Positions 4,627 to 30,093 of a stretch of 36,934 bases of DNA are shown here, in pieces. Position numbers and translations under genes: made by a program. The notes beneath the pieces were generated by a model. That model searched no databases and was not told where the DNA came from. It saw only the letters and a list, made by a program, of their open reading frames with translations. This DNA is from an uncultured Bacteroidota bacterium. Lineage in GTDB: Bacteria; Bacteroidota; Bacteroidia; 2-12-FULL-35-15. Position 1 is the first letter of the stretch, and each line of letters starts with the position of its first letter. The stretch covers positions 1 to 36,934 of the forward strand of contig CAIWDF010000020.1 in the NCBI GenBank assembly GCA_903911435.1. The letters run 5' to 3'.

Positions 4627-5523
4627 TTAATCGGAACAACAAGCCCGCTGCACTGCCCAGCTCCATTTACCAATAACATGATACGTGAGTACATCGTAAG
4701 GCACATCCACCGCTTCTATTTTTGGAGTGTACACATATTCGCGTTTGTATTGCACCGTTACCGTTTCTTCGGTGGTGATACTAAACGTTTCGGGATAACC
4801 TAAGGTGATTGACATTTGTGTTTCTGGACATTCGGCAGGACATTTGGGTAATTGCCTAAGTGCATTGTGCAATTGCATCATCACTTCTTGTTCCAAACTT
4901 CGTTCCATTTCCGATTTAAAACGAACATAATCTCTTCTGAAATCCTCTTGTGTATAGCGTTTCAACTCGCGATGCACATGGTTACTTTCTTTCACTATCA
5001 CTTTGTCGAACATCGGTTGAGGACAACCAAAATCGAAAACCTTATCGCCAATATGTGTTTTTGCTGAGCTTGCCGTAACACTATCTTTTGGCAAACCTTC
5101 TATACCACCATCAGGTAGGCATATCCATCGTGCTGTCCACATCACCGACACAGCAATGATTACAAAAGGGTCGCCTTCTTTCACACCTCTTGCAAGCGAT
5201 GCTGCATCGTTTGGTAGCAAAGCAATAGGAGTAACTTGGGTATATGGTTTGTCGTATTTAGGAGGCGATAGACGAATAGACAATGCTACTTTACCACCCT
5301 CGTGCACTGGTGGCGATATTACTTTGGATAAAGCAATGGCTTTGTCGATGGCTGCTTTGTTGGCCATATACACAGCATGTTCGTTTGCTTCTCTTCGTTT
5401 GGGAGGCATTTCCATTTCTTCAGGATGTAGGCGTGCATAACCTTCGATAATGTCGGAGCCTATGTACACTCCAATAGGGCTTTGGTTGACCTCTATTACT
5501 GGTTGCGATTTTTTTAATTCCAT
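4627..5523 (-). CDS. Hypothetical protein, cysteine-containing (298 aa)
   Basis: I do not recognise the family. There is no signal peptide or membrane segment, so it is likely cytoplasmic. Residues 1-60 contain a short strand-rich start and an MPPKRREANEHAVYMANKAA helix. Residues 70-150 are beta-like with repeated proline turns (SIRLSPPKYDKPYTQVTPIA). Residues 185-225 form a charged helix (YTQEDFRRDYVRFKSEMERS). The tail holds KCPAECPE, two strands with alternating Thr/Val (ETVTVQYKREYVYTPK) and a final ACCSD. The paired cysteines could bind metal or form a disulfide. Its minus-strand neighbours are an SRPBCC gene upstream and SCO1 downstream, with 165 and 232-bp gaps, so it is probably a single transcription unit. 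Confidence 0.7.
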   Translation of the reverse strand: MELKKSQPVIEVNQSPIGVYIGSDIIEGYARLHPEEMEMPPKRREANEHAVYMANKAAIDKAIALSKVISPPVHEGGKVALSIRLSPPKYDKPYTQVTPIALLPNDAASLARGVKEGDPFVIIAVSVMWTARWICLPDGGIEGLPKDSVTASSAKTHIGDKVFDFGCPQPMFDKVIVKESNHVHRELKRYTQEDFRRDYVRFKSEMERSLEQEVMMQLHNALRQLPKCPAECPETQMSITLGYPETFSITTEETVTVQYKREYVYTPKIEAVDVPYDVLTYHVIGKWSWAVQRACCSD

Positions 5524-5688
5524 TTTTCGAAAAATTTAGAAATTAAAAGAACTTCGAACTTATTAATCTATCTGGAGGGAAGTTCTTCGTGCTGTAAAAT
5601 TACAATTTATTCATTTTGCAGCCTGTTTTTTTTTGGGAAATTATTTTCAACAACAATAGAGAGGTTGACTTAAAAATGAAGAAGAAAA

Positions 5689-19911: not shown

Positions 19912-19987
19912 GGTGGCTGTAGTTCAGTTTGGTTAGAGCATCGGTTTGTGGTACCGAGTGTCGTGGGTTCGAGTCCCATCAGCCACC
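19912..19987 (+). tRNA. tRNA-His (anticodon GTG)
   Basis: A full cloverleaf is present. The acceptor arms GTGGCTG (19913-19919) and CAGCCAC (19980-19986) pair, and the extra 5' G at 19912 can pair with C73 at 19987, the G-1 hallmark of tRNA-His. The T-arm reads GGGTTCGAGTCCC, and the anticodon loop carries GTG within TTTGTGGTA. The 3' CCA is not encoded (the next bases are CAA), so it must be added after transcription. It is a single-gene unit with its own -7 box and terminator. Confidence 0.97.
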
Positions 19988-23860: not shown

Positions 23861-25903
23861 ATGGTGAAACCTAGATTCGTAGTATCATTTATTTTTTGTT
23901 TGCTCGTTTATTTTTCTGGATATGCCCAGAGGAATAATGCTGCGCGTTACGAAATAGATGCAAAACGAATAGGAGTGATGCCCAACGATAAAGATGCACT
24001 CCCTCGAAGCCGTGAGTTTATTAGGCTCGACAGTACTTATTATGTAGGGTGGATGTACGAAGGAGTGTATAAGTTCGAGCGGAGTTCGGATTATTTGGGT
24101 TATAAATATGCCATCGTTCCATTGCGTAAAGCATTTGATTTGCTCACAAAAGATTTTGGAAACACGTTCAAAAAACTTTTTTCGAGTCCGATGTATTACA
24201 TGGAAAATCAAAGTAGGTTTAATGATTTATATATTATATCCACCACCTTGCAACAGGATTATAACAATGTGGAAATGCCCGATTCGGTAATGGCGATGCT
24301 GGATAAGATAGATAGTTATCATTTTCAAAAAGACTTTTTCAGCACGTGTAACGAACGGGGGTGGTTGTATCATCGCTATCGTTTTTTTAATGGTGATAAA
24401 TTTGATTTCCTAAAAAACTCGGTTGAAGAAAATGAAAAGATGGCGCTTCACTCGTGTTACCAAGGATTTGAAAAGATACAAAAGAATCAAGCTGTTAATG
24501 ATTATTGGTATGGCCCACATCAAAGTGATGAGGATAGATTAATCATTTACCATAACCTTGCTATTATTCATGCTTATAATCAACACTACGATAGTTGCGA
24601 GTATTATTATAAAAAACTAGAAGAAGGCAATCGAATACTTTGGGGAAATTATGCCGAATTGCAAATGGAGATTGGCAATTTTGATAAAGGCATGGAGTAT
24701 TTTGCGAAGCATCAAAACATACGCGAACATGGATTGGACGAGCAATGTTATTTTGTTCCTATCTTAAATGTGTTTAAAGGAAATACGAAACTTGCCATCA
24801 GTGCAACGCTCGATAAGATAAGTAAAAGTGGTTCTATTCCTGGCTTTGGTTGGTATACCATTGCTTTGGCTCGAAGTTATTTATACGATGGACAATTGGA
24901 TAGCTGTGAGTTTTATTTGTCGAAAGCCGCTAATTTCAAGGAGGTGCACATTGGTACTACTCTTACTCAATCGCAATATGAGTTTACCATTAACCTTTTG
25001 AAAGTTCAACTGAATGATAGAAAGATAGCATTGATTAAGTTTCAGAACAAAGGTTGGTGGTATAGTTTTACGGACGTGTACAACCTTGTGGCTTTGAAAA
25101 TTGAAAACTATTTGAATACCTATGTGGTGGTGAATCAGCTGGCCAATAACCCCGAACGCAAACGCATTGTGTACGATTTGTTCTGCAACGAATCGACCAT
25201 AACGTTTGACGAAACGATGGGTTTATTAAAAAACTTTAGTTACTCATATTTTCAAAATAAATATGTGAATTATCAATTGACCGATAAGCGCAAGAAAATT
25301 CAACGGTATTTCAAATTGTTTTGTTCCGAATTGAAATACGAACATGGCGATGAACAAGCATCGGCAGCCGAAGCATCGCAGCTTTTGCAACAAACAAGTG
25401 GGCCTGCACCGAACGATACATTGAATGATGTTTTGGCCGATACAGCCACCGAAAAATTGTTTTATGCGCGGCTTTACGAATTGCTTGCCAAAACACATGA
25501 GGGAGATGACGAAAAAACGAAATACAAGATGTACAGTTCCAAATTCTTTGAAACCTATCCTCAATTGGTACCTTTTAGCGGACTGAAACTGCCCATGCAC
25601 CTTACCGTAACGGGCGAGATGGATGAGATGGTGACAAAGGTGATAAAAGACCTAAAGGGTGCCAACATCGAATGGGTGAACGAAACACAAGGCGAGATAA
25701 CAAGTACCATACAATTTACCAAAAAAGGAAAACAATACGAAGCCATTGTAAATGTTAAAACTGCGAGTGGAACTACGGTGGTGAAAAACGAACAATTGGT
25801 TTTTAAGAACGAAAAAGGAGTGGGGCAGGAGCTTGCTCAAAGATTATTTGGCAAAGGTGGTGTGGTGGAGTTCGAAGAAACAAACGATAAACTTCCGCAT
25901 TAA
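23861..25903 (+). CDS. Secreted helical-repeat (TPR-like) protein (680 aa)
   Basis: A signal peptide (MVKPRFVVSFIFCLLVYFSG, ending near YAQ) precedes a long alpha-helical region. Paired helices with TPR-like spacing occur around residues 220-350 (LAIIHAYNQHYDSCEYYYKK, GNFDKGMEYFAKH, ALARSYLYDGQLDSCEFYLS). The final 90 residues change to beta strands (KLPMHLTVTGEMDEM, GEITSTIQFTKKGKQYEAIV). There is no membrane anchor after the signal, so it should be periplasmic. As the third gene of the transglutaminase-moxR operon it may be a scaffold or partner of that pair; this is inference. It does not match DUF58 or VWA patterns. Confidence 0.8.
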   Translation: MVKPRFVVSFIFCLLVYFSGYAQRNNAARYEIDAKRIGVMPNDKDALPRSREFIRLDSTYYVGWMYEGVYKFERSSDYLGYKYAIVPLRKAFDLLTKDFGNTFKKLFSSPMYYMENQSRFNDLYIISTTLQQDYNNVEMPDSVMAMLDKIDSYHFQKDFFSTCNERGWLYHRYRFFNGDKFDFLKNSVEENEKMALHSCYQGFEKIQKNQAVNDYWYGPHQSDEDRLIIYHNLAIIHAYNQHYDSCEYYYKKLEEGNRILWGNYAELQMEIGNFDKGMEYFAKHQNIREHGLDEQCYFVPILNVFKGNTKLAISATLDKISKSGSIPGFGWYTIALARSYLYDGQLDSCEFYLSKAANFKEVHIGTTLTQSQYEFTINLLKVQLNDRKIALIKFQNKGWWYSFTDVYNLVALKIENYLNTYVVVNQLANNPERKRIVYDLFCNESTITFDETMGLLKNFSYSYFQNKYVNYQLTDKRKKIQRYFKLFCSELKYEHGDEQASAAEASQLLQQTSGPAPNDTLNDVLADTATEKLFYARLYELLAKTHEGDDEKTKYKMYSSKFFETYPQLVPFSGLKLPMHLTVTGEMDEMVTKVIKDLKGANIEWVNETQGEITSTIQFTKKGKQYEAIVNVKTASGTTVVKNEQLVFKNEKGVGQELAQRLFGKGGVVEFEETNDKLPH

Positions 25904-26050
25904 GTACAGTATCCTAAAAGTTCCCTTTCTTATTGTTTAGGGTAATAAATGCCTTAGGAAAAAGTAATATATAAAGTGTTATTTATCTGTATTTTATGTC
26001 ATTTAGGAGGTTGTTAAACTCATTTTTTAGGTGCCACAAGACATTTCGGT

Positions 26051-26205
26051 AACTAAAATGCGTAGGTGCGTGGCGCACCAAGACAGTTTGGCAACTAAAA
26101 TGCGTAGGTGCGTGGCGCACCAAAACAGTTTAGCAACTAAAATGCGTAGGTGCGTGGCGCACCAAGACAGTTTAGCATCTAAAATGCATAGGTGCGTGGC
26201 GCACC
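26051..26205. repeat. Four 42-bp repeats, each carrying a hairpin (REP-like)
   Basis: Units start at 26051, 26093, 26135 and 26177, exactly 42 bp apart, with few mismatches; a decayed unit can be traced upstream to about 26030. Each contains GGTGCG-TGG-CGCACC, a 6-bp stem with a three-base loop, at 26065-26079, 26107-26121, 26149-26163 and 26191-26205. One minus-strand frame stays open through the units (as with any 42-bp repeat lacking stops), but no start codon is convincing. The 396-bp gap 25904-26299 holds only this block and a terminator between two convergent genes. Confidence 0.95.
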
Positions 26206-26235
26206 TTTAATTGTGGTTCTAAAATTTTCTTTATG

Positions 26236-26272
26236 AAATAAAAAAAGTGGGTTAAACTCAATTAACTCACTT
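26236..26272 (-). terminator. Terminator after the response regulator/PP2C gene
   Basis: The arms 26245-26255 and 26262-26272 pair over 11 bp with one G-U, with a six-base loop. On the minus strand they are followed by a T run (plus-strand A run at 26240-26246). It lies 27 bp past the stop at 26300. Confidence 0.75.
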
Positions 26273-26299
26273 CAAATCATAGTACTTTGTACATAACAA

Positions 26300-27607
26300 C
26301 TACGGAATAGTAAGACCGAAAACACTTACATCATCGGTTTGTTCGTTTATCCCTTTCCAATTGATAAACTCTTTTAACAATATTTCGCGATGGTTATCAG
26401 GATGATGACTTCCTATTAATGAAATCAACATTTTGAATCGTTGACTGCTAAATTTCTTATTGTATTTCCCTCCAAATTGGTCCATAAATCCATCCGAAGT
26501 CATAAAGATGGTATCTCCCGATTGCAAGTCAACCGTTTGTATCACCTCGGTATCGATGGTTTCGAGGATTTCTTCACCAAAAATTAATTTGCTTCCTTCT
26601 AGTTCAATCAGCTTCGATTTGCGGATGATATACAGGTTGAGTTTAAAACCCACAAACTTTAATTGATAGGCTTTTTTGTCGAAAAAGAAATAACCAAGCT
26701 CAACCGAATCTTGATTAAAATTGTTGTTCAATGTTTTTCGAAACTGATTATTAGCCTTACAAATGATGGTGTTTACATCGTTCTTTAGTTTCGTTCGTTC
26801 GAACGATTCGCGCAAGGCACCATAAGCCAGCAACGAAACAAAAGCTCCCGGAACCCCATGTCCTGTGGAATCGGCAATGCAATACGAAAGATGGTTCTCG
26901 TCATTATGATACCAAAAAAAGTCGCCACTCACAATGTCTTTGGGCATTATCAAGGTAAAAGCATTGGGAATGTCTTTCGTAAAATCGGTTTCGCACGAAA
27001 GCACCGATTTCTGAATCAAACCCGCATAGTTAATGCTATCGGTAAGTTGTTTGTTTTTGAATTGTATTTCATGCACCTTGTCTTCTACTATCTTCGACAG
27101 GTTGGTGTTTAAGTTTTTGAGCTGTACGTTCGATTCTTTAAGGCGCAATTCAAGTTCTACCGACTGTATAGCTTCCTTAATGGTCATCTGAAAATCCAAA
27201 TCGTCCACCGGTTTGGTCAACATTCGATAGATATTGGCATAATTAAGCGAGTGGATAATAGCATCCAGTGTAGGGTTTCCCGACATCAGAATTTTTTTCG
27301 CCTCTGGATAGTACTTCATCGATTCCTCGAGCAGCACATTTCCTTCCATTCCCGGCATCGACAAATCGCTTAAAATTAATGAAACAGCAATGCCTTTATG
27401 TTTCATGCTTTTCATGAGCTCTAGCGCTTCCAAAGGGTCGTTAGCTGTTTCAACGGTGAAGTTAAACTCTTCTACATTGTACAGCTTTTCCTTAATCGAA
27501 AGCATTAAATTAATATCATCGTCAATAATTAATATTCGATGATTAATCACTGATGCCTTGGCATCGGTAACAATATCCGTTCTGAAATTAGTTCGTTGAG
27601 TTGCCAT
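26300..27607 (-). CDS. Response regulator with PP2C (SpoIIE-type) output phosphatase (435 aa)
   Basis: Residues 24-145 are a receiver domain: acidic DDD (29-31), phosphoacceptor Asp81 in LILSDLSMPG, Ser109 and Lys132 in LTKP. A coiled coil follows (about 148-190). The PP2C/SpoIIE domain then has the metal-binding acids Asp229 (SGDFFWY), Asp246 (ADSTGHGVPGA) and Asp372 (TSDGFMDQ). The protein should dephosphorylate a Ser/Thr-phosphorylated partner when phosphorylated itself. In other bacteria the usual target is an anti-sigma-factor antagonist, but none is encoded here. The gene overlaps the end of the histidine kinase gene by 20 bp, so the two are a cognate pair. Confidence 0.94.
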   Translation of the reverse strand: MATQRTNFRTDIVTDAKASVINHRILIIDDDINLMLSIKEKLYNVEEFNFTVETANDPLEALELMKSMKHKGIAVSLILSDLSMPGMEGNVLLEESMKYYPEAKKILMSGNPTLDAIIHSLNYANIYRMLTKPVDDLDFQMTIKEAIQSVELELRLKESNVQLKNLNTNLSKIVEDKVHEIQFKNKQLTDSINYAGLIQKSVLSCETDFTKDIPNAFTLIMPKDIVSGDFFWYHNDENHLSYCIADSTGHGVPGAFVSLLAYGALRESFERTKLKNDVNTIICKANNQFRKTLNNNFNQDSVELGYFFFDKKAYQLKFVGFKLNLYIIRKSKLIELEGSKLIFGEEILETIDTEVIQTVDLQSGDTIFMTSDGFMDQFGGKYNKKFSSQRFKMLISLIGSHHPDNHREILLKEFINWKGINEQTDDVSVFGLTIP

Positions 27608-29670: not shown

Positions 29671-30093
29671 TTAGTTAAAATGAAAGAAGAAAAATACCAC
29701 AGCAGCATATGCTTTTGGCACACCATTGGCGCTTCCTATGCTACTTCCAGAACTGTTTCTCACTGTTCCATCCGAATCTATTTTCCCGATACTACTTCCC
29801 GACTCGTTACGAACGGTTCCATCTGAATCTAATTTCCCGATACTGCTTCCCGAACCATTTCTTATCGTACCATCCGAATCTATTTTACCGATGCTACTTC
29901 CCGAACTGTTTCTAATTGTTCCATCACGATCGATTTTTCCTACACTACTTCCCGAACCATTTCGTATGGTGCCATCCGAATCGATTTTTCCTGTACTACT
30001 TCCGCTAGAACTTCTTAATTCTTGAGCATGAAGTTGATTGATACCAATGAAGATTGATACCATTAATGTTGCGCTAATAAGTAATTTTTTCAT
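29671..30093 (-). CDS. DGTIRN-repeat secreted protein, probable five-fold beta-flower type (140 aa)
   Basis: A signal peptide (MKKLLISATLMVSIFIGINQ, ending near LHAQ) is followed by five 17-residue repeats beginning at Ser30, 47, 64, 81 and 98 (pattern SGSSxGKIDxDGTIRNx), a sixth SGSSIG start, and the tail NGVPKAYAAVVFFFFHF. The five-fold count, the Gly/Asp turns and the aromatic tail fit what has been called a five-fold beta-flower protein in Bacteroidota. Each repeat should form strands around a pseudo-symmetric axis, closed by the hydrophobic tail. Function is unknown; the location is periplasm or outer face. The gene has a likely -7 box at 30134-30127. Internal repeats make it prone to copy-number change. 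Confidence 0.85.
   Translation of the reverse strand: MKKLLISATLMVSIFIGINQLHAQELRSSSGSSTGKIDSDGTIRNGSGSSVGKIDRDGTIRNSSGSSIGKIDSDGTIRNGSGSSIGKLDSDGTVRNESGSSIGKIDSDGTVRNSSGSSIGSANGVPKAYAAVVFFFFHFN
29734..30006. repeat. 51-bp coding repeats inside the DGTIRN-repeat gene
   Basis: Five full units of 51 bp and a partial sixth encode the 17-residue protein repeats. Units differ at many silent positions, so the duplication is old rather than recent slippage. Confidence 0.85.

Follow-up and report, generated by a model that had tools for sequence, protein, structure and literature searches.

A four-unit array of paired palindromes and a class of intergenic tandem repeats with a 21-bp pitch in one clade of Bacteroidota

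Between two convergent genes of an uncultured Bacteroidota bacterium lie four 42-bp tandem units, each made of two unlike palindromes whose centres are 21 bp apart, and tandem arrays whose period is a multiple of 21 bp recur elsewhere in this genome and in its sister genomes. The stretch of DNA analysed, hereafter the window, is 36,934 bp long. The interpretation that I favour, to which the sequences lend about even confidence, is that the window array is one of two copies of a non-coding element (some 60 bp of shared left flank followed by 4 x 42-bp units), and that this element is a member of a class of intergenic arrays spread over the clade, with a 21-bp pitch that would be kept at the level of DNA. 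It builds on five things that I count as established: the period of the array, the existence of a second locus, the 21-bp pitch of the class as a whole, the spacing of the dyads and the conserved dyads of a sister family.

The window array and its second locus

TRF delimits the array at 26037–26205 (period 42, 4.0 copies, 93% matches, 0% indels, score 282). All of its units are arranged head to tail, and neither the array nor its palindromes were assigned to a strand. An earlier note on this DNA had described four hairpins spaced by 42 bp, each with a 6-bp stem, and both statements hold: GGTGCGTGGCGCACC is found without mismatch at 26065, 26107, 26149 and 26191, always on the + strand, and the palindrome at these positions, dyad B (GGTGCG-TGG-CGCACC; exact matches at 26065–26079, 26107–26121, 26149–26163 and 26191–26205), has a stem of 6 bp and a TGG loop. 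In the last unit an extra outer pair brings the stem to 7 pairs and extends the palindrome to 26190–26206. A second palindrome in each unit, dyad A, had been overlooked. It is imperfect (CATTTCGGTAACTAAAATG), with a TTTAG-CAA-CTAAA core that has CA and TG on its sides, and it occupies 26042–26060, 26084–26102, 26126–26144 and 26168–26186, with centres at 26051, 26093, 26135 and 26177; the first of these centres is 21 bp ahead of that of the first dyad B (26072). Each unit is therefore composed of two unlike halves, one carrying dyad B and the other dyad A, with dyad centres at 14.0 and 35.0 within the unit, i.e. 21.0 bp apart. As B-DNA has 10.5 bp per turn, 21 bp spans two helical turns. With two unlike palindromes per unit at this distance, the inverted repeats would form a lattice along the array, all of them on one side of the B-DNA helix.

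The array lies in a gap of 396 bp between genes that converge, as the earlier note had stated. According to the list of open reading frames, the left gene (23861–25903, + strand) encodes a protein of 680 aa, which has no match in Pfam. The right gene (26300–27607, − strand) encodes a response regulator receiver with a SpoIIE phosphatase domain and adjoins a histidine-kinase-like gene. No open reading frame of at least 80 aa runs across 26037–26205, so by this measure the repeats are not coding, and the sole Rfam match in the whole window is a tRNA at 19913–19987, with none at the array. Being intergenic and free of indels, and having a period of 42 bp, a multiple of 21, the array has the properties of the 21-bp-pitch class described below.

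A search of the genome (4.19 Mb, 312 contigs) disclosed one further array of this sequence, at positions 5334–5525 of contig C63, which is 82–86% alike and lies between two co-directional genes; the element is thus not unique in the genome, uniqueness together with a lack of effect on coverage being what the earlier note had named as fatal to its own reading. The two loci have in common a BOX-like leader (see below) of about 60 bp, likewise overlooked in the earlier note, at 25966–26025 in the window (contig C20, + strand) and at C63:5275–5334, where sequence comparison gives 83% identity. Their right flanks are unlike, hence the window array has no BOX-like trailer, and beyond C63 the leader has matches only with E above 0.2, which does not make it a wider family. 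Among 148 genomes searched, own included, the array sequence was found in none of the other 147, and a two-unit pattern gave 0 matches in a genome collection from which records near the window may be excluded. In the sister genome G014 the orthologues of both flanking genes lie 15 bp apart, which leaves no space for an array; the encoded proteins are 73–84% identical, and at such identity the junction of an insertion cannot be placed. The same contig of G014 has an array of different sequence elsewhere (L154 7352–7570). The close spacing of the G014 genes suggests that arrays come and go among genomes whose proteins are 73–84% identical.

A class of arrays with a 21-bp pitch

Tandem repeats of one genome normally come in many unit lengths. 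Here, both TRF and a survey of lags brought out many arrays with one pitch. The survey scored lags of 8–129 in 30-bp windows with at least 27 matches; six short all-N contigs were excluded from the counts. The 759 kb sampled from the genome of the window contain 46 tandem arrays, and in 34 of these the period is 21 bp or a multiple of it: 21 bp in 13 arrays, 42 in 17, 63 and 84 in one each and 126 in two. The other 12 of the 46 have different periods (14, 22, 24, 57, 73, 82, 88, 94 and 102), and these count against the explanation that I favour. The density of arrays is biased upwards because most of the surveyed stretches are contig starts, and some of the G000 stretches had been picked on earlier hits. 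When the window and the four contigs fetched for hits are set aside, multiples of 21 still make up 28 of 39 arrays.

The same pitch prevails in six sister genomes (G004, G005, G012, G014, G015 and G027, whose 680-aa protein is 65–73% identical), with 14 of 16 arrays in 295 kb. By contrast, multiples of 21 account for none of the 5 arrays in four other genomes of the genus (400 kb), none of the 17 in five other families (400 kb) and none of the 8 in 33 named loci (646 kb). The clade thus has 48 of 62 against 0 of 30 outside it (Fisher p 7.7e-14); the sampled outside genomes that have the 680-aa protein show 57–58% identity to it. Each of the seven clade genomes contains at least two such arrays, and the period is exactly 21 or 42 in 39 of the 48. 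Periods of 28 and 35 were never chosen in the survey, and 49 was chosen once.

The sequences of the class arrays are mostly unrelated, and most of the arrays are intergenic. A crude gene caller was applied to a list of 53 rows, in which L075 and L154 are the same G014 array. It assigns 8 of them to an open reading frame, some of these frames being probably spurious, and the other 45 to intergenic positions or contig ends. Seventeen of the 45 are at contig ends; the rest are flanked by co-directional (13), divergent (11) or convergent (4) genes, orientations for which the background has 114, 54 and 27 gaps respectively. Since 11 of the 34 own-genome arrays reach a terminal base of a contig, the arrays explain part of the fragmentation of these draft genomes. 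Arrays with higher-order units (84 and 126 bp) show expansion by whole units.

Two more regions of the window, both found by TRF without strand assignment and both missed in the earlier note, have this pitch. At 1–198 an array of 21/42-bp units (TGCACCAATGTAACCATGCAT) is broken by the start of the contig; it is 81% like an array at L127 18682–18842. At 1272–1403 a region with a period of 21 bp consists of AATTGTTTTTAGTTAATAGCG units, then of a degenerate stretch of AATAGGG heptamers. There are other repeats as well. The arrays at L224 1640–2206 and L226 48–448 have periods of 22 and 88, not 21, and those of L216 and L213 have periods of 73 and 94, near odd multiples of 10.5. At L023 902–1225 an open frame with VHNGRKE-like seven-residue repeats, beside an IS200-type transposase, is probably a further 21-bp array. 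Finally, the window encodes at 29671–30093 a 5-fold beta-flower protein (PF21785) with 51-bp coding repeats.

Dispersed families and dyad symmetry

Among the 34 own-genome arrays, six pairs of alike arrays stand at separate places. One family, F-B, has matches on 11 contigs and a composite layout, in which 42-bp units, varying in number between elements, stand between a leader, aligned from six loci, and a trailer, aligned from nine; this family, then, does have a BOX-like trailer. In the sampled stretches of the genome the F-B trailer has four matches, all of them at most 400 bp from a 21-bp-pitch array, and two of the four arrays are unlike F-B in sequence. The trailer, with a TATACATATATATATGTATA-like palindrome, is seen after unlike arrays at L127 19271–19321 and L033 439–522. 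The stretches of clade relatives yielded a single trailer match (L168), with no array within 400 bp. F-B itself is represented in relatives only by stretches of 23–24 bp in G005 and G004 and of about 42 bp in G041, and 4 of 41 genomes, own included, have any match to it. At five F-B loci with genes on both sides (L229, L231, L232, L236 and L238) the element seemingly lies between divergent genes, as judged from the list of open reading frames.

The spacing of the palindromes in the window array recurs in other arrays. Eleven arrays, from eight families, have 42-bp units whose halves are unlike. In these the joint score of two dyads rises sharply to its maximum when the offset is 21.0 bp; its mean z is then 2.73, as against 0.64–1.56 at offsets of 14.0–20.5 bp. 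The joint test gives p 0.002 for the window array and a value under 0.05 for 7 of the 11, the other 4 staying above. Over 52 arrays (L075 was left out, since it lies on the same contig as L154) dyad symmetry is weakly enriched, with 10 of 52 under 0.05 and a combined p of 0.024; folding, compared with unit-shuffled arrays, gives 11 of 52 and a combined p of 6e-7. Because the dyad test over the 52 arrays is weak, dyads were rejected as a class-wide trait, and the pitch alone is taken to characterize the class. In units of 21 bp the two best dyads are often 10.5 bp apart, which follows trivially from periodicity and was not counted.

Covariation was assessed in F-B on 49 units, 42 of them distinct, after eight mis-phased or end units had been removed (among them two from L229 and four from L236) and ten L235 units re-phased. 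Both dyads pair in 83.5% of cells, compared with 75.8% in shuffles, and both-sided changes affect 60 cells, compared with 31.4 +/- 5.8 in shuffles and at most 9 when slid, with the caveat that related units can beat shuffles without any structure. Of the five measures, two are no higher than in the shuffles (pairs with both-sided changes, 7 versus 7.5; pair types, 15 versus 15.3). At the centre of one F-B dyad is an invariant AATT without a loop, which suits recognition of double-stranded DNA better than an RNA hairpin. The window array's own family (8 units) displays no covariation, its score being reached by 268 of 500 shuffles.

Origin and maintenance of the pitch

The pitch is regarded here as a DNA-level constraint because 21 bp is two helical turns, because the dyads face one side and because an RNA hairpin needs no such pitch. 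Arrays would grow and shrink by whole units, and would be copied along with their flanks into new intergenic sites where they diverge; the two-turn lattice would be copied and homogenised inside the one clade, its pitch kept on double-stranded DNA. The likeliest agent would be a clade protein that acts in two-turn steps, whether dimeric and DNA-binding, nucleoid or replication-repair. As to what the window array does, my guess is that it separates the two convergent genes at the level of DNA, as a boundary or a roadblock.

Against this explanation, the pitch could be inherited by descent and not enforced at all. Descent from one functionless satellite is a serious rival, and one that I hold possible though not probable: an ancestral 21-bp satellite would have been copied round the clade genome by mutation alone, the pitch being a relic of that descent. 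Whole units would be gained or lost through slippage or unequal recombination, and template switching in quasi-palindromes would perfect the dyads and make them covary. The shared-flank families and the six alike pairs demonstrate copying, the units of 84 and 126 bp demonstrate expansion by whole units, and the finding of no such sequence array in the 147 other genomes speaks for a fast turnover, all as this alternative would have it. Moreover, quasi-palindrome correction yields both-sided changes without selection. Yet drift should alter the pitch by indels, and 39 of the 48 clade arrays have kept to exactly 21 or 42; and slippage alone leaves unexplained the exact 21.0-bp offset between the dyads of two unlike halves.

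A further proposal, which I put forward tentatively, is that of a ruler of 21 bp that is independent of sequence. A protein or a repair process would found, copy or phase intergenic arrays of arbitrary sequence, so that each chromosome would carry on the order of at least 100 lattices with the pitch as their sole common trait, a feature not described before. A search of open-access literature turned up no description of a class of 21-bp-pitch arrays.

The array might instead act as RNA, with transcribed hairpins that terminate the mRNA of the 680-aa gene, or those of both genes, or that protect their 3' ends. Its position between convergent genes agrees with such a function, and the 396-nt gap folds strongly on either strand (z -6.5 on the + strand and -5.5 on the − strand, none of 100 dinucleotide shuffles equalling it on either), part of this z stemming from the tandem repetition itself; one unit alone, however, folds no better than shuffles (z +0.9). 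A consensus terminator scan (2 found versus 0.3 expected) picks up the array's final hairpin on either strand. On the + strand, however, this hairpin is followed only by TTTAATTG, a broken T-run that amounts to a weak U-tract, and on the − strand the regulator operon has a terminator-like hairpin with a T-run of its own at 26240–26272, between the regulator stop codon and the array and thus ahead of the latter. This hairpin was recognized by eye (the fold of 26226–26285 has z -2.6) and is absent from the list of the consensus scan. Class arrays, besides, occur in every gene orientation (n=28 with genes on both sides), and RNA hairpins have no need of a 21-nt pitch. I consider a role in RNA improbable.

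The proposal of the earlier note that the hairpins are REP-like holds insofar as they are extragenic, palindromic and not unique, but that they are targets of a REP-associated (Y1) transposase is largely refuted and very improbable, the core being present in too few copies and the transposase gene being flanked by another palindrome. A 6-bp stem and a 3-bp loop are within the REP range, GTAG stands directly ahead of three of the four dyad-B hairpins (26062, 26104 and 26146), and the Y1 transposase gene that the earlier note advised looking for exists, two genes of the genome matching PF01797. The tag varies, however, being ATAG in unit 4 and of the GTTG or CTTG type at the C63 hairpins, and every unit is head to tail. 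Where a REP would have tens to hundreds of scattered copies, a genome-wide search for the hairpin core with up to 2 mismatches allowed gives 9 matches, of which the two arrays account for 7 (reversed-pattern control, 1 + 1), so that it is confined in essence to two loci. The RAYT-like transposase gene (176 aa; L024 1420–1950, contig C157) is flanked not by the hairpin of the array but by inverted copies of GCGAGCGTGTTTCGCTCG (+ at 4907, − at 5628), of which the genome has 16 copies when 1 mismatch is allowed, 12 of them exact (control, 0). The 16 copies of this palindrome, some around the RAYT-like gene, indicate that the genome has a REP-like system distinct from the array.

Several known systems offer partial likenesses. 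The F-plasmid centromere sopC is made of tandem 43-bp repeats with inverted repeats, about four turns per unit, and is bound by a dimeric protein. The window array is like it in having about four helical turns per unit and a palindrome in the unit; sopC differs in being one locus per replicon with one sequence, whereas here there are many loci with unlike sequences.

BOX elements of Streptococcus pneumoniae are dispersed and non-coding, with conserved end modules round tandem structured inner modules that vary in number (PMC3049150), and F-B has the same modular layout. Here, in contrast to BOX, the inner units vary between families while the pitch stays at 21 bp, one trailer follows unlike arrays, and the window array shares its left flank with a second locus but has no trailer; the sequences are unrelated. 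Borg elements carry many independent tandem arrays, about half of them intergenic, often ending contigs and rare outside the group; the intergenic unit lengths varied, only 14–38% being divisible by three, and the units were perfect (PMC9879509). The clade resembles them in its many independent and unlike arrays per genome, in their rarity outside the group and in the arrays that touch a contig end (11 of 34), and differs in having one pitch, imperfect units, and a chromosomal and bacterial location. With REP/BIME elements and their RAYTs (PMC2817692, PMC3733652) the array has in common short extragenic hairpins and the GTAG before three of the four; it differs by its two loci, a tag that is not conserved, head-to-tail units and the failure to find a cognate transposase in this genome. 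Lastly, a survey of 7006 prokaryotic genomes found intergenic heptamers to be the commonest periodic repeats (PMC6344855). These too are intergenic tandem arrays without known function, and 21 is 3 x 7; lags of 7 and 14 bp, however, dominate one outgroup family, and among the periods chosen in the survey made here 28 and 35 are unseen and 49 occurs once.

A clade that shares one two-turn pitch across mostly unrelated arrays makes the question of what determines the length of a repeat unit directly testable. Should the phase be kept by a DNA-binding protein, the arrays would be natural lattices for it; should a repair or replication process be responsible, they would be the footprint of that process.
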